64,000 nucleotides of DNA from assembly GCA_019115805.1 (NCBI GenBank), contig DXCW01000220.1, forward strand, positions 1 to 64,000. Reading direction: 5' to 3'. The notes under the pieces were generated by a model that was not told the DNA's origin, ran no database searches, and worked only from the letters and a program-made list of their open reading frames with translations. This document shows positions 56,963 through 62,204 of the stretch, piece by piece. Positions within the stretch are counted from its first letter, which is position 1; the number at the start of each line of letters is the position of its first letter. A program made the position numbers and the translations under genes. The DNA comes from Candidatus Sphingobacterium stercorigallinarum. GTDB taxonomy: Bacteria > Bacteroidota > Bacteroidia > Sphingobacteriales > Sphingobacteriaceae.

Positions 56963-57010
56963 AGCAATAAAAAACTCTTCGTCTATCTAGACGAAGAGTT
57001 TTTTATTGCT
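56963..57010. terminator. Perfect 23-bp palindrome / terminator after sdhB
   Basis: AGCAATAAAAAACTCTTCGTCTA pairs perfectly with its reverse complement around two bases, forming a very long hairpin with a T run inside the second arm. It ends the sdhCAB operon and could act in both directions. Confidence 0.85.
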
Positions 57011-57139: not shown

Positions 57140-60100
57140 ATGGGCAATAAAATAAGAATTCTTCTACTCATATTAACTGTGTCCTTTCTAGCAACCGCCA
57201 TCATGATAAATAACATGGTGACCGACGATGATATGCTGGAACTGGACACCCGGACACTGGCAAAAAATGTCCATAAGCAGGAGGATCTAATCGACAAGGT
57301 ATTTGCCGATTCATCGTTGATGAAAGCTTTCGTCAATGTGGAGGTATATCCTTCGCAGGTTCTAGAACTCACCAAAGCATATCGAGACAAACACCGGATT
57401 TTCTTCTACATCTATAAGGATCATAAACCCGTCTTTTGGAACACCAATATTTATGTCCCGCATACCGATGTAGGAATACAGGCTGACGCCGTTTATATTC
57501 AAGAAGACGGCCGATCGTTTATCGTTAAACGTAAGATTCTGACTAGGAATACCACCGTACTCGCGCTGATTCCCGTGAAAACACATTTCCCGGTTAGTAA
57601 CGAGTATTTGCCAAACTCATTTTCTTCCCGTCTGATCAAGACCAATAACCTGACTATCGCGGATTATACAGATTCCGAACAGATACGAAACATTTACAGC
57701 AAGGATGGGTCCTACTTGTTTTCTGTTCGGCTCAACCAGGGTAAACACGATAATATTTTTATGGATATCCAGTTTCTCTGCTGGATTTTCGCATCCATCT
57801 GCTTTATCATTCTGGTGAACAATATTTGTTTAATGTGGGCCAAGAACGGTCATCCCTGGGCCTCAGTGGTGCTGTTCACGCTGACCTTAATTTTCACCCG
57901 CTATATCGATCTGAACACCAACTGGCTCGCCTCTACGTCCAGTTTAGGCTTATTTGACCCGAAATATTATGCCTATAATCCGGTATTGCCGAATCTGTGG
58001 GCCTTTTTTATGACGACTGTCTCCATTGGTTGGCTCGTTCTGTACTGTCGAAGCATCTTACCGCATCTCAAAGAACAACTCAATCGCATTCCATTAAAGT
58101 TCGCTTCCATCGTGTCCTTTCTGGCTTTATTGAGTGTCTACTTTATCAGTAATCTCCTGTTTTTCCATATCGCTACACTGATCACTAACAGCACGGCGGT
58201 CAATATGGATTTGACTAATTTACTCTCCTTCGACGGATACAGTTGGCTGAATATGTTGATATTCTGTATCAATATGGTCATCCTGCTCTATTTTATCGAG
58301 ACCGTAGTCAGTATCCTTCGATCCCTGCTTCCCAATAAGATTTCCTTTTTAAATGTTCAACTCATTACGTTGGTCACCGCCATTGTACTGAATGCACTTA
58401 TCATAGGTGATAACGTCATTTTCAACATTTTTTTGGGCGGCATTATTATGCTCCGAGCCTACAGCAAAGTAACCGTTAATTTGGCCGTTTCCACCTTTAT
58501 CCTAACCTTGGTATTTCTAGCCTTTATGACCACCTCGGTCTACATGTTAGCCATCAAGGATAAAATGCAGCGGGAGATGCAAATCTCCGTCAACCAATTG
58601 GACGCAGAAGACGACTTAAATGCCACCGCGTTGTTTGCAGAAATCGAAGAAGATCTCATCAACGATCGACGGCTCCGACAATTGTTCGCCATCAGTTTAC
58701 CTCATACCCAAACGGATATTATCAACGAATACATCAAGACAAATTATTTTAGCGGTTATCTCTCCAAATTCGAGTTCAACGGGTATTATTATTTCAATGA
58801 TCGGCCTTTAGCCGATTACCCGAACGATAAAATCGGTGAATATCGCGAAAAAGTCATCAACAACTCGACCAAAGTTCAACAAACAGAGAACTTCTATCGA
58901 GTTCGGAGTGAACTGGGCACGCATGAATACTTTCTGCAATTCGACATCCCCTTTAGTGACGCCAATAATGAACAGATCGTTCAAGTATTTGTCAATTTGA
59001 AAAATAGAGCGTTTGGGACGGCGATGCCCTACCCGGTTATTTTATCCGATAGCAAAACAGAGTTTATTCGAAATTACCAAAACAATTCCTCTTCATTCGC
59101 TCTATATAGGGATGGGAATCTGGTGACGCAAAACGGCCCGTTTACTTACCCCAATACAGATGATGTATTTGGAGGGCGTATGCAACAGTACGTCACGCTA
59201 GAGGATTACAATGGCTATTTCAACGTGATTTACAAACCGGATGAGCACACCACATTGGTTGTCAGCACAGAACAACTCAGCTTGTGGCAGTCGGTCGCCG
59301 TATTTTCATTTCTATTTTTATGTCTATATATCTATTTCCTCCTATTCGGCGCAACCACTTACGCGATCGGACTTGTTACCCACAAATCGTTTAGTCTACG
59401 TAGCGTCCGCTACCAGTTCAAATTGATCCTCAATCGCATTCAGTACAGTACGCGTATTCAGACCATGATCATCGGAGTCGTCATTTTTTCGGTGCTCACC
59501 TCCGGCCTCATCTCTTTCATCAGTATCTCCGGACAACTGGAAAAGTCCAAAGTACAGCAACGATTGAATTATGTATTGGATGTGGCCAAGAAGATTGAAA
59601 ACAACACCGCTACCGCATTTAGCAATTCCGAGAGCCACATTCGGGAGATTGTAAAGCAATTATCCGAGAGTTCGGTAACGGACTTTAACTTGTATAATAA
59701 AAATGGCAAACTGATTTACACTTCGCAACCGCGCATTTACGACATGGGATTGCTGTCGGAGTTTATCAACCCCGTCGCTTTTAACAATTTAAACGTATTG
59801 AAAAAGACGGATTCATTTATTAAAGAGCGGATGGTTTTCTTTGAGTATAATTCCAGTTACGCGACCATCAAAAACAACGAGTACAATACCGTTTTGTTCT
59901 TGAACATCCCGTATTTCACCTCTAGCGAAGAGGAAAATGAAAGCCAAAACCTGCTACTCAACACCTTATTGAACATCTATACCATCATTATCTTGGCTTT
60001 AGGGTTTTTAACTGTAATGATTGCCAACGCCATTACGAAGCCGCTGAGCCTGATCGGTCAGAAACTGTCCCAAACCATGTTCAGCAACAAACCCAATGAG

Positions 60101-60904
60101 CCGTTGTATTGGCAACGAGACGACGAGATCGGGGCACTCGTCAAGGAGTACAACATCATGATCGTAAAGCTGGAAGAAAACGCGAAACAGCTGCGAAATG
60201 CCGAGCGTGAGTATGCGTGGCGAGAGATGGCTAAGCAGATTGCGCATGAGATCAAGAACCCCCTCACGCCGATGAAATTAGGCATACAGCAACTTACCCG
60301 AAGTTACAAAGAAGACGATCCTCGTTTTGAGGAACGTTTCACCAAAATCTCAAATTCATTTATCGAGCAAATCAATAGCCTGTCTCGAATCGCGACTGAG
60401 TTTTCCAACTTTGCTAAATTGCCAGACACCAACGTGGTAAAAATTGATGTGGTGGAAAAAATTAACAAATCCGCCAATGTGTTCCACAATAGTCATAATA
60501 CACATATAAAAGTTATCAACAACACGGATTTTGAGCACCTATACGTATTAGGCGATAAGGATCAACTCCTGCGAACCTTTAATAACTTGATTAAGAATTC
60601 GATCGAGGCATCTATTGGCCGAAAAAAGCATTTGATTAGTATTATTCTGGAACACCAAGATGAACAGCATCTTAGAATCATGATCAAGGACAATGGGATG
60701 GGCATACCGTCGGAGGTGATTCCGAAGATTTTCCAACCGAATTTCACTACAAAAAGCTCAGGCACAGGACTGGGTTTAGCCTTCGTTAAAAAGACCATCG
60801 AATCGATGAATGGAGATATTTCCTTTGTTACATTCGAGGGGGTTGGCACCACGTTCACCATCGTACTGCCCATCTATCGAGAACAGGAGGCAGATAAAGA
60901 TTAG
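57140..60904 (+). CDS. Giant multi-pass sensor histidine kinase
   Basis: This membrane histidine kinase of 1254 aa has roughly 12 transmembrane segments. Helix 1 (residues 5-22) is followed by an extracytoplasmic part, then about eight helices (residues 210-470), a second extracytoplasmic sensor region (470-710), further helices near 715-795, a third extracytoplasmic region and a last helix near 940-960. A HAMP-like linker follows (NAITKPLSLIGQKLSQ), then the kinase core: H1036 in AHEIKNPLTPMKLGIQ, N-box LIKNSIEAS, and ATP boxes DNGMGIP and GTGLGLAF. The core resembles NtrY-like kinases. No response regulator gene is adjacent, so its partner is elsewhere. Confidence 0.88.
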   Translation: MGNKIRILLLILTVSFLATAIMINNMVTDDDMLELDTRTLAKNVHKQEDLIDKVFADSSLMKAFVNVEVYPSQVLELTKAYRDKHRIFFYIYKDHKPVFWNTNIYVPHTDVGIQADAVYIQEDGRSFIVKRKILTRNTTVLALIPVKTHFPVSNEYLPNSFSSRLIKTNNLTIADYTDSEQIRNIYSKDGSYLFSVRLNQGKHDNIFMDIQFLCWIFASICFIILVNNICLMWAKNGHPWASVVLFTLTLIFTRYIDLNTNWLASTSSLGLFDPKYYAYNPVLPNLWAFFMTTVSIGWLVLYCRSILPHLKEQLNRIPLKFASIVSFLALLSVYFISNLLFFHIATLITNSTAVNMDLTNLLSFDGYSWLNMLIFCINMVILLYFIETVVSILRSLLPNKISFLNVQLITLVTAIVLNALIIGDNVIFNIFLGGIIMLRAYSKVTVNLAVSTFILTLVFLAFMTTSVYMLAIKDKMQREMQISVNQLDAEDDLNATALFAEIEEDLINDRRLRQLFAISLPHTQTDIINEYIKTNYFSGYLSKFEFNGYYYFNDRPLADYPNDKIGEYREKVINNSTKVQQTENFYRVRSELGTHEYFLQFDIPFSDANNEQIVQVFVNLKNRAFGTAMPYPVILSDSKTEFIRNYQNNSSSFALYRDGNLVTQNGPFTYPNTDDVFGGRMQQYVTLEDYNGYFNVIYKPDEHTTLVVSTEQLSLWQSVAVFSFLFLCLYIYFLLFGATTYAIGLVTHKSFSLRSVRYQFKLILNRIQYSTRIQTMIIGVVIFSVLTSGLISFISISGQLEKSKVQQRLNYVLDVAKKIENNTATAFSNSESHIREIVKQLSESSVTDFNLYNKNGKLIYTSQPRIYDMGLLSEFINPVAFNNLNVLKKTDSFIKERMVFFEYNSSYATIKNNEYNTVLFLNIPYFTSSEEENESQNLLLNTLLNIYTIIILALGFLTVMIANAITKPLSLIGQKLSQTMFSNKPNEPLYWQRDDEIGALVKEYNIMIVKLEENAKQLRNAEREYAWREMAKQIAHEIKNPLTPMKLGIQQLTRSYKEDDPRFEERFTKISNSFIEQINSLSRIATEFSNFAKLPDTNVVKIDVVEKINKSANVFHNSHNTHIKVINNTDFEHLYVLGDKDQLLRTFNNLIKNSIEASIGRKKHLISIILEHQDEQHLRIMIKDNGMGIPSEVIPKIFQPNFTTKSSGTGLGLAFVKKTIESMNGDISFVTFEGVGTTFTIVLPIYREQEADKD

Positions 60905-61160: not shown

Positions 61161-62105
61161 TTATTTGAGTACCACAGATGAGCGCCCCATAATCGCATTA
61201 TCTGCGTAAAGCAAAACGGTATACGCGCCTTTCTGGAAGCGGTGTTGGTCATCCGCCCAATTCATCTGATATTCCCGGCCATTATTGGTGAACTGAATGT
61301 CCTCTTTGAAAGTATATTGCAGCTTTTCACCGTGTACATAAAATAAATCCTCCGAGTTGGCGATTAAATTCCCTTTGGGATTAATAATACGGACAAAAAT
61401 ATCTTTCTCTCCTACCTCGGCGATGGGATTATCTGCAATGGTAAAGTTGATTTGAAGTTGGTCAATACGCTTGGCTCGCGTTTCGTGCTCAAGCACACCA
61501 TCCTTCTTCACCTGAACGCCGGAAATATGAATATTGGAAGCTTTGATAGACGAGGCTTGTACAATTTTATCATTTAATGCTTCGCGTTCGGAGGTGAGTG
61601 CTTCAAGTTTCGCTTGGTTTTCGCGTGCTTGTTGCGAAAGTTCAACGTTGTTCTCTGCCAGTAATTGGTTTCGAATCCGCAGGGTACTCACTTCGTCTTT
61701 GATGAGGAATACTTGGTCTTTCAGCTGCGCCACTTCCAACTTCGCCGACTCTATCTGTTGGTCGTCGATTTCATTGTTGTCCAAATCCGTTCTCAATCCA
61801 TCGATTTGTGCCCGCGCTGACTGTTCGGCAGCGACCAATGAGGTGGTCGTATTGATGCCGCCCAATTGTATGTTATCCAATTCTGCCTCAATCCGGTCAA
61901 TCTCTATCTGCAGGCTTTCTTTTTGCAGCGTGATGGTATATAGCTTCTCTCCCGAAGACTTATACTTTACATAAAAATAAATGTTGGTTGCCAGTAGCGC
62001 CGAAATCGCGATAATGAAAAAGTAAATTTTCGAGTTACTCTTCTTTTTCTCTGGCTCACTATGTATTATTTCTCGTTCTTTTATTTCCTTAATATCTGAA
62101 TTCAT
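61161..62105 (-). CDS. Single-pass membrane protein with long coiled coil, unknown function
   Basis: The ORF track starts 21 codons early; the ATG at 62105 (MNSDIKEIKEREIIH) is chosen. A charged cytoplasmic start is followed by one membrane helix (IYFFIIAISALLATNIYFYV, residues ~28-47). Residues ~55-195 form a long coiled coil (KESLQIEIDRIEAELDN, LEVAQLKDQVFLIKDEVSTL). The C-terminal ~110 residues are a beta-rich domain (GVLEHETRAKRIDQLQINFTI). Similar proteins in Bacteroidota are sometimes labelled as chromosome-segregation-like, but that only reflects the coiled coil. Function unknown. About 250 bp between this gene and the kinase hold no clear gene. Confidence 0.8.
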   Translation of the reverse strand: MNSDIKEIKEREIIHSEPEKKKSNSKIYFFIIAISALLATNIYFYVKYKSSGEKLYTITLQKESLQIEIDRIEAELDNIQLGGINTTTSLVAAEQSARAQIDGLRTDLDNNEIDDQQIESAKLEVAQLKDQVFLIKDEVSTLRIRNQLLAENNVELSQQARENQAKLEALTSEREALNDKIVQASSIKASNIHISGVQVKKDGVLEHETRAKRIDQLQINFTIADNPIAEVGEKDIFVRIINPKGNLIANSEDLFYVHGEKLQYTFKEDIQFTNNGREYQMNWADDQHRFQKGAYTVLLYADNAIMGRSSVVLK

Positions 62106-62204
62106 TTGTCCACCATCTCTTTGAAAACTTCTCGCTCCGTTTCTAATCCTCAAATGCGATTTACGCACTCGATTGAACTATGCAAAAATTGTTCCAACAT
62201 CTAT

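Follow-up and report, generated by a model that had tools for sequence, protein, structure and literature searches.

What does a sensor histidine kinase of 1254 residues, with some 12 membrane segments and no response regulator gene at its side, sense and control? The question is raised by a gene of Candidatus Sphingobacterium stercorigallinarum, located in a contig stretch of 64,000 nt (hereafter, the window, i.e. the whole stretch of DNA analysed). Bacteroidota have many orphan kinases and regulators, and for most of these the wiring has yet to be worked out; a search of the open literature found no description of this kinase in the phylum. We propose that the protein probably serves as the sensor in a two-component system of the NtrY/NtrX type in Bacteroidota, and that this system is split, with the regulator gene elsewhere in the genome.

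The kinase gene, its surroundings and its distribution

The ORF is a real gene, with full-length orthologues in all 36 other Sphingobacterium genomes (41–77% identity), and a re-reading of the sequence gave the same coordinates, strand and length as the original prediction (Table 1). The kinase was found in 184 of 197 genomes of the class and in 94 of 148 genomes of the phylum. In most of the class it occurs at 26–32% identity, as a rule in a single copy and usually with about 1190–1300 aa. Of the 23 families sampled outside the genus, 18 show a (nearly) uninterrupted frame of 1194–1294 aa; among the other five, two have a form of ∼485 aa, one has a frame of 807 aa, one a partial gene near a contig end and one none. 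In other classes of the phylum the frames are ∼1250–1400 aa long (one of 1501). A fusion artefact was rejected, as the full-length kinase is present in many families. The size, called unusual along with the topology in the original prediction, is indeed so among histidine kinases generally, but throughout Bacteroidota it is what this single-copy family normally has.

Short forms of ∼490 aa (485–508 aa) start near residue 755–775 and thus consist of the last sensor module and the core; they were seen at G040:C6 and G057:C3 and are common in one family (f26). The truncation to ∼490 aa looks derived, since the full-length kinase is found in this class and in others alike; its presence in those other classes of the phylum disfavours the short form as the ancestral one.

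Comparison of orthologue neighbours showed that within the genus the kinase gene is usually located 3′ of sdhC-sdhA-sdhB. Between sdhB and the kinase gene we found, by direct reading, a perfect 21-bp inverted repeat with a 4-nt loop and A/T-rich ends, which was absent from the list produced by a consensus scan. The repeat looks like a (two-way) terminator and, as such, would set the kinase gene apart from the three genes upstream. Coupling to succinate dehydrogenase was rejected, since sdhCAB adjoins the kinase gene only within the genus and the perfect inverted repeat lies in between. Outside the genus the neighbours vary (mutS, a gene for a B12-binding subunit and other genes), hence they give no functional hint. 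On the reverse strand of the window, positions 61161–62168 encode a coiled-coil membrane protein without a Pfam match; it is conserved in Sphingobacterium (308–335 aa) and its gene adjoins gmd.

Table 1. Features of the kinase gene and of the region upstream of it (positions in the window; residues of the kinase)
Feature	Position	Strand	Evidence
Sensor histidine kinase, 1254 aa, 12 TM segments, whole ORF	57140..60904	+	ATG start, ORF translation, Pfam, orthologues
Inverted repeat (perfect over 21 bp, loop of 4 nt, ends rich in A/T) in the sdhB–kinase gene interval	56964..57009	.	Read from sequence
TM1, residues 5–23	57152..57208	+	Family-mean hydropathy; AF2 helix 2–26
Periplasmic domain 1, residues 24–207, helices then beta strands	57209..57760	+	AF2, hydropathy
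8-TM block without known family, residues 208–471	57761..58552	+	Hydropathy, AF2
Periplasmic domain 2, residues 472–718	58553..59293	+	AF2, hydropathy
TM10 and TM11 with positively charged cytoplasmic loop, residues 719–796	59294..59527	+	Hydropathy, loop charge
Periplasmic domain 3, Cache/PDC-like, residues 797–942	59528..59965	+	Weak Pfam matches in orthologues; AF2
TM12, residues 943–963	59966..60028	+	Hydropathy
HAMP-like linker, residues 964–1015	60029..60184	+	HAMP in 22/29 orthologues
DHp domain, H-box AHEIKNPLTPMKL	60200..60424	+	HisKA Pfam match
HATPase_c catalytic domain	60551..60874	+	Pfam E 2.4e-23

Topology and domain anatomy

Family-mean hydropathy (34 orthologues), residues 1–800 as modelled by AlphaFold (mean pLDDT 81, pTM 0.70) and the K+R charges of the loops all agree on 12 transmembrane segments, at approximately residues 5–23, 208–228, 240–258, 287–305, 322–343 and 370–391 (TM1–TM6) and 402–420, 423–441, 450–471, 719–740, 774–796 and 943–963 (TM7–TM12). 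Counted for each orthologue by hydropathy, the number has a median of 12 and a range of 10–13 (n = 34), with a crude cut-off that may fuse neighbouring helices into one or take an ATPase-domain strand for a helix. The predictions stay near 12 and in no case fall to far fewer helices; with them, the expected number of membrane segments, the three extracytoplasmic regions (24–207, 472–718 and 797–942) and the multi-helix block (208–471) were all borne out. Helix parity places the three sensor domains outside and the kinase core inside.

Above the Pfam cut-off this protein has only HisKA (residues 1027–1094), HATPase_c (1138–1245) and related ATPase models. The core motif AHEIKNPLTP contains a HEIKN(P) H-box with the predicted phospho-accepting residue His1036 (codon at 60245–60247) and a conserved Asn at H+4; positions H1036, E1037, I1038, K1039, N1040 and P1041 are invariant in 28 orthologues and all catalytic boxes are conserved. 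A model of residues 762–1254 made with AF2 has a pLDDT of 80. For domain 3, weak matches to sCache_3_3 or Cache_3-Cache_2 models were obtained in as many as 14 of 29 orthologues (14 with sCache_3_3), and none of significance in this sequence; similarly, Pfam recognises the HAMP region in orthologues (Table 1) and not in this sequence itself.

For residues 1–760 no consistent Pfam or NCBIfam match was obtained, either in this protein or in 28–34 orthologues, only scattered single weak hits. The model of the N-terminal part has no PDB match at E ≤ 1e-3 in sequence and fold searches, with PAS-like or chance-level similarities as the weak remainder, and across residues 1–800 of 34 orthologues W100 and G666 are the sole invariant positions. 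An 8-TM block of no known family, without a consistent Pfam match in the 34 orthologues or a solved fold, could suggest that the 760 residues make not additional sensor domains but a transporter-like or enzyme module (a transceptor) sensing flux or a membrane intermediate. We consider this unlikely: the sequence shows no conspicuous charged or catalytic motif, only the two invariant residues, and the ∼490-aa forms, where the N-terminal part is wholly missing, still co-occur with the regulator described below.

Search for the partner regulator

No receiver domain gene adjoins the kinase gene in the window. Of ∼147 orthologue loci, whose flanks were examined over 1.5 to ∼10 kb, three showed some receiver-like match, with no consistent placement, and the gene for the NtrX-like regulator introduced below was never within the flanks; in one genome (G037) the two genes are on one contig, about 52 kb apart. 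The absence of a response regulator next to the kinase gene thus holds both in the window and in the orthologue loci, and the comparison of neighbours brought up no partner gene beside the orthologues.

The genome of the strain itself (G000) has 26 receiver matches and 21 HATPase matches, some of the latter being GyrB, HSP90 or MutL. Two kinases have no regulator nearby: the giant kinase and a PorY-like one (L105, G000:C112). The orphan regulators include PorX (L083), an OmpR-type (L069, C201), a NarL-type (L084, C51) and an NtrX-like regulator (C144), with perhaps a LytTR-type receiver on C191 as well. The OmpR-type gene has no kinase gene in its 1.5-kb flanks. Orphan PorY-like kinases, in which an A-HQLGTP H-box replaces the usual HE-K-P, were observed at G000:C112, G053:C213 (L384) and G322:C17 (L385); in G053 and G322, two very reduced genomes, this kinase is kept along with an orphan PorX.

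The NtrX-like regulator (459 aa, G000:C144:5599-6975) is made of a receiver, a Sigma54_activat domain, an AAA lid and a Fis-type HTH (HTH_8). Its best NCBIfam model is NtrX, at 444.2 bits over the full length, which is below the equivalog cut-off of 600 bits (NF051870). NtrX naturally pairs with kinases of the NtrY type, which makes this regulator a candidate partner of the giant kinase. The sigma-54-contact loop G[SA]FT[SG]A is present in 59 of the 59 regulators checked, so the contact with sigma-54 seems to be kept. In many families of the class the regulator has 387–408 aa, stops ∼30–40 residues past GN[IV]REL and has no HTH (e.g. G042:C88); regulators from Sphingobacterium and from other classes do carry the HTH. 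A regulator of the HTH-less form may act from solution, without binding DNA. Wherever a short kinase has a listed regulator length, it is paired with a short, HTH-less regulator; the converse is not true. At 11 of 19 loci in the class the regulator gene is located 3′ of dnaJ (grpE) and of genes for an ABC ATPase and an ABC permease, often with Ppx/GppA. In other classes its neighbours are folD and a gene for a D-Ala-D-Ala carboxypeptidase-like protein, or else a gene for a LolD-like ATPase.

A match at E ≤ 1e-120 was taken as an orthologue of the regulator; the next matches, at 6e-107 or weaker, are well separated from these. Among 148 genomes of the phylum (five of them scored from earlier searches), 94 have both kinase and regulator, none has the kinase only, one has the regulator only and 53 have neither (phi 0.985). 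In the class (197 genomes) the respective counts are 181, 3, 2 and 11 (phi 0.80). Loss of both genes in these 11 genomes maps to families f61, f71, f79 and f88 and to f25, where other members hold both. Fisher's P-values of 9e-40 (phylum) and 8e-14 (class) are overstated, as the genomes are related. The co-occurrence is partly phylogenetic, related genomes not being independent, and the losses were tallied by family; the separate family-level losses and the contrast with PorX, described next, make a better argument than the P-values. Of the six exceptions overall, four are in assemblies that are 95–97% complete, while two (G067 and G283) are in genomes rated 100% complete.

As a control we used PorX in the same 197 genomes of the class. 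PorX is present in 189 of them and its co-occurrence with the kinase is weak (phi 0.36 versus 0.80 for the NtrX-like regulator), which disfavours it as the partner. The near-universal presence of PorX, as well as the several orphan receivers of the strain that could be targets, would be in line with the kinase signalling to another orphan (PorX or the OmpR-type regulator on G000:C201), its co-occurrence with the NtrX-like regulator then reflecting just that both are core genes. We find this very unlikely, given that, of the 11 class genomes lacking the kinase as well as the NtrX-like regulator, 8 retain PorX, and that PorX already has a proven partner, PorY (PMC4800418), with a PorY-like kinase present in the genome of the strain and in G053.

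The small genome G053 (2.0 Mb, rated 100% complete) keeps the kinase, and its receivers, as found, are two: the NtrX-like regulator and PorX. It has four HATPase matches, namely the giant kinase (1194 aa), a 398-aa kinase with the motif AKETAHQLGTP, GyrB and MutL; this inventory uses PF00072 and PF02518 only, so kinases of divergent families could be missed. By size and H-box motif the 398-aa kinase resembles PorY. If it is matched with PorX, the giant kinase and the NtrX-like regulator are left for each other. The pairing is also directly testable in this genome, which has two detected kinases and two detected receivers.

Orphan two-component genes often sit in branched networks. The kinase could accordingly be a node with several outputs, or one of several inputs to the regulator, and the genomes having the regulator without a detected kinase (G067, G043, G233 and G255) would fit such wiring. 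The near one-to-one presence and absence of the two genes speaks against it, and three of the four genomes (G043, G233 and G255) are only 91–95% complete, so that the kinase gene may be unassembled there. We therefore regard a branched node as improbable, though less so than signalling to another orphan.

Taken as a pair, the kinase and the NtrX-like regulator very probably work together, judging by gene content across genomes. The original prediction of a kinase with no partner is correct as far as adjacency is concerned; elsewhere in the genome, the sigma-54 regulator co-occurs with the kinase near-perfectly, and because of this co-occurrence the kinase is better called one half of a split pair than partnerless.

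Proposed pathway and comparison with known systems

In the proposed system, signals from the envelope would be read by the kinase with as many as three periplasmic domains plus the 8-TM block. The signal would pass via the Cache-like domain 3 and the HAMP-like linker to the HEIKN-type DHp/ATPase core, which would phosphorylate the NtrX-like regulator (G000:C144:5599-6975) or, by means of the conserved Asn at H+4, dephosphorylate it. For PlrS, a kinase of the NtrYX family, HEIKN with Asn at H+4 has been described as a mark of kinases with dual kinase/phosphatase activity (PMC13001219). The phosphorylated regulator would drive sigma-54 genes, most likely those of envelope or protein-folding stress. 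We rate output via sigma-54 as likely. A role in the envelope or in proteostasis is put forward more tentatively, at slightly less than an even chance, on the basis of the periplasmic sensor domains, the proteobacterial NtrYX precedent and the position of the regulator gene 3′ of grpE-dnaJ-ABC transporter genes; the cell envelope of Rhodobacter is under NtrYX control (PMC7240162) and sigma-54 is generally tied to the cell exterior (PMC3162934). More speculative, and on balance doubtful, is an extension of this scheme to a core, phylum-specific envelope system, in which the 12-TM, three-domain kinase controls a sigma-54 activator and the HTH-less activator of many families, working from solution, sets the total sigma-54 activity genome-wide rather than that of single promoters.

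The sensor architecture is real and conserved and probably belongs to a split NtrYX-like pair. The two genes, never neighbours in the genomes examined, are linked in hundreds of genomes by being present or absent together. Should the pairing hold, Bacteroidota possess an envelope-to-sigma-54 pathway that is almost universal, with a spread comparable to that of PorX, and a sensor whose first 760 residues belong to no named domain family.

Three known systems invite comparison. AtoS, ZraS and other NtrB-type kinases serving sigma-54 regulators have a HisKA/HATPase core of the same broad class, and among NCBIfam models AtoS ranked first for the giant kinase (152 bits), with HK_LIC11548 also at the top and no NtrY model in the best 25; however, the scores are far below the curated cut-offs. 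Kinases of the AtoS/ZraS type are conventional short sensors, usually encoded beside their regulator.

PorY and PorX likewise make a split pair, widespread in the phylum: in Porphyromonas gingivalis PorY was proved to phosphorylate PorX though their genes lie apart (PMC4800418). The giant kinase is not PorY, however. PorY has ∼394 aa (porY is 1185 nt long; PMC4800418), whereas the giant kinase is about three times longer, has the H-box HEIKNP in place of the AHQLGTP of PorY-like kinases, and is accompanied in its own genome by the separate PorY-like kinase L105. PorX differs from the NtrX-like regulator in having a PglZ domain and lacking a sigma-54 domain.

The closest resemblance is to NtrYX (NtrY/NtrX; PlrSR of Bordetella). 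Shared with it are the core with the HEIKN H-box, a periplasmic PDC/Cache-like domain followed by HAMP, and a regulator with receiver and sigma-54 AAA+ domains that best fits the NtrX model. The NtrY-like core named in the original prediction is borne out by the H-box. In a plasmid collection, an unannotated Azospirillum match (5e-31) and Sinorhizobium NtrY (2e-30) had the best E-values among the matches listed; NCBIfam, as noted above, ranks AtoS first. In contrast to NtrYX, the genes of kinase and regulator are unlinked, the kinase is longer at its N-terminus by ∼760 residues, which hold two additional periplasmic domains and ten additional TM segments, and the regulator in many families of Bacteroidota has no DNA-binding domain. 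While PlrS has the order HAMP, PAS, kinase (PMC13001219), Pfam searches gave no PAS hit in the giant kinase or its orthologues, and HAMP (to ∼1015) is followed too closely by DHp (from 1021) to leave room for this domain. As PAS and gene linkage are features of NtrY, we consider the giant kinase to be a variant of NtrY rather than a member of the NtrY family.
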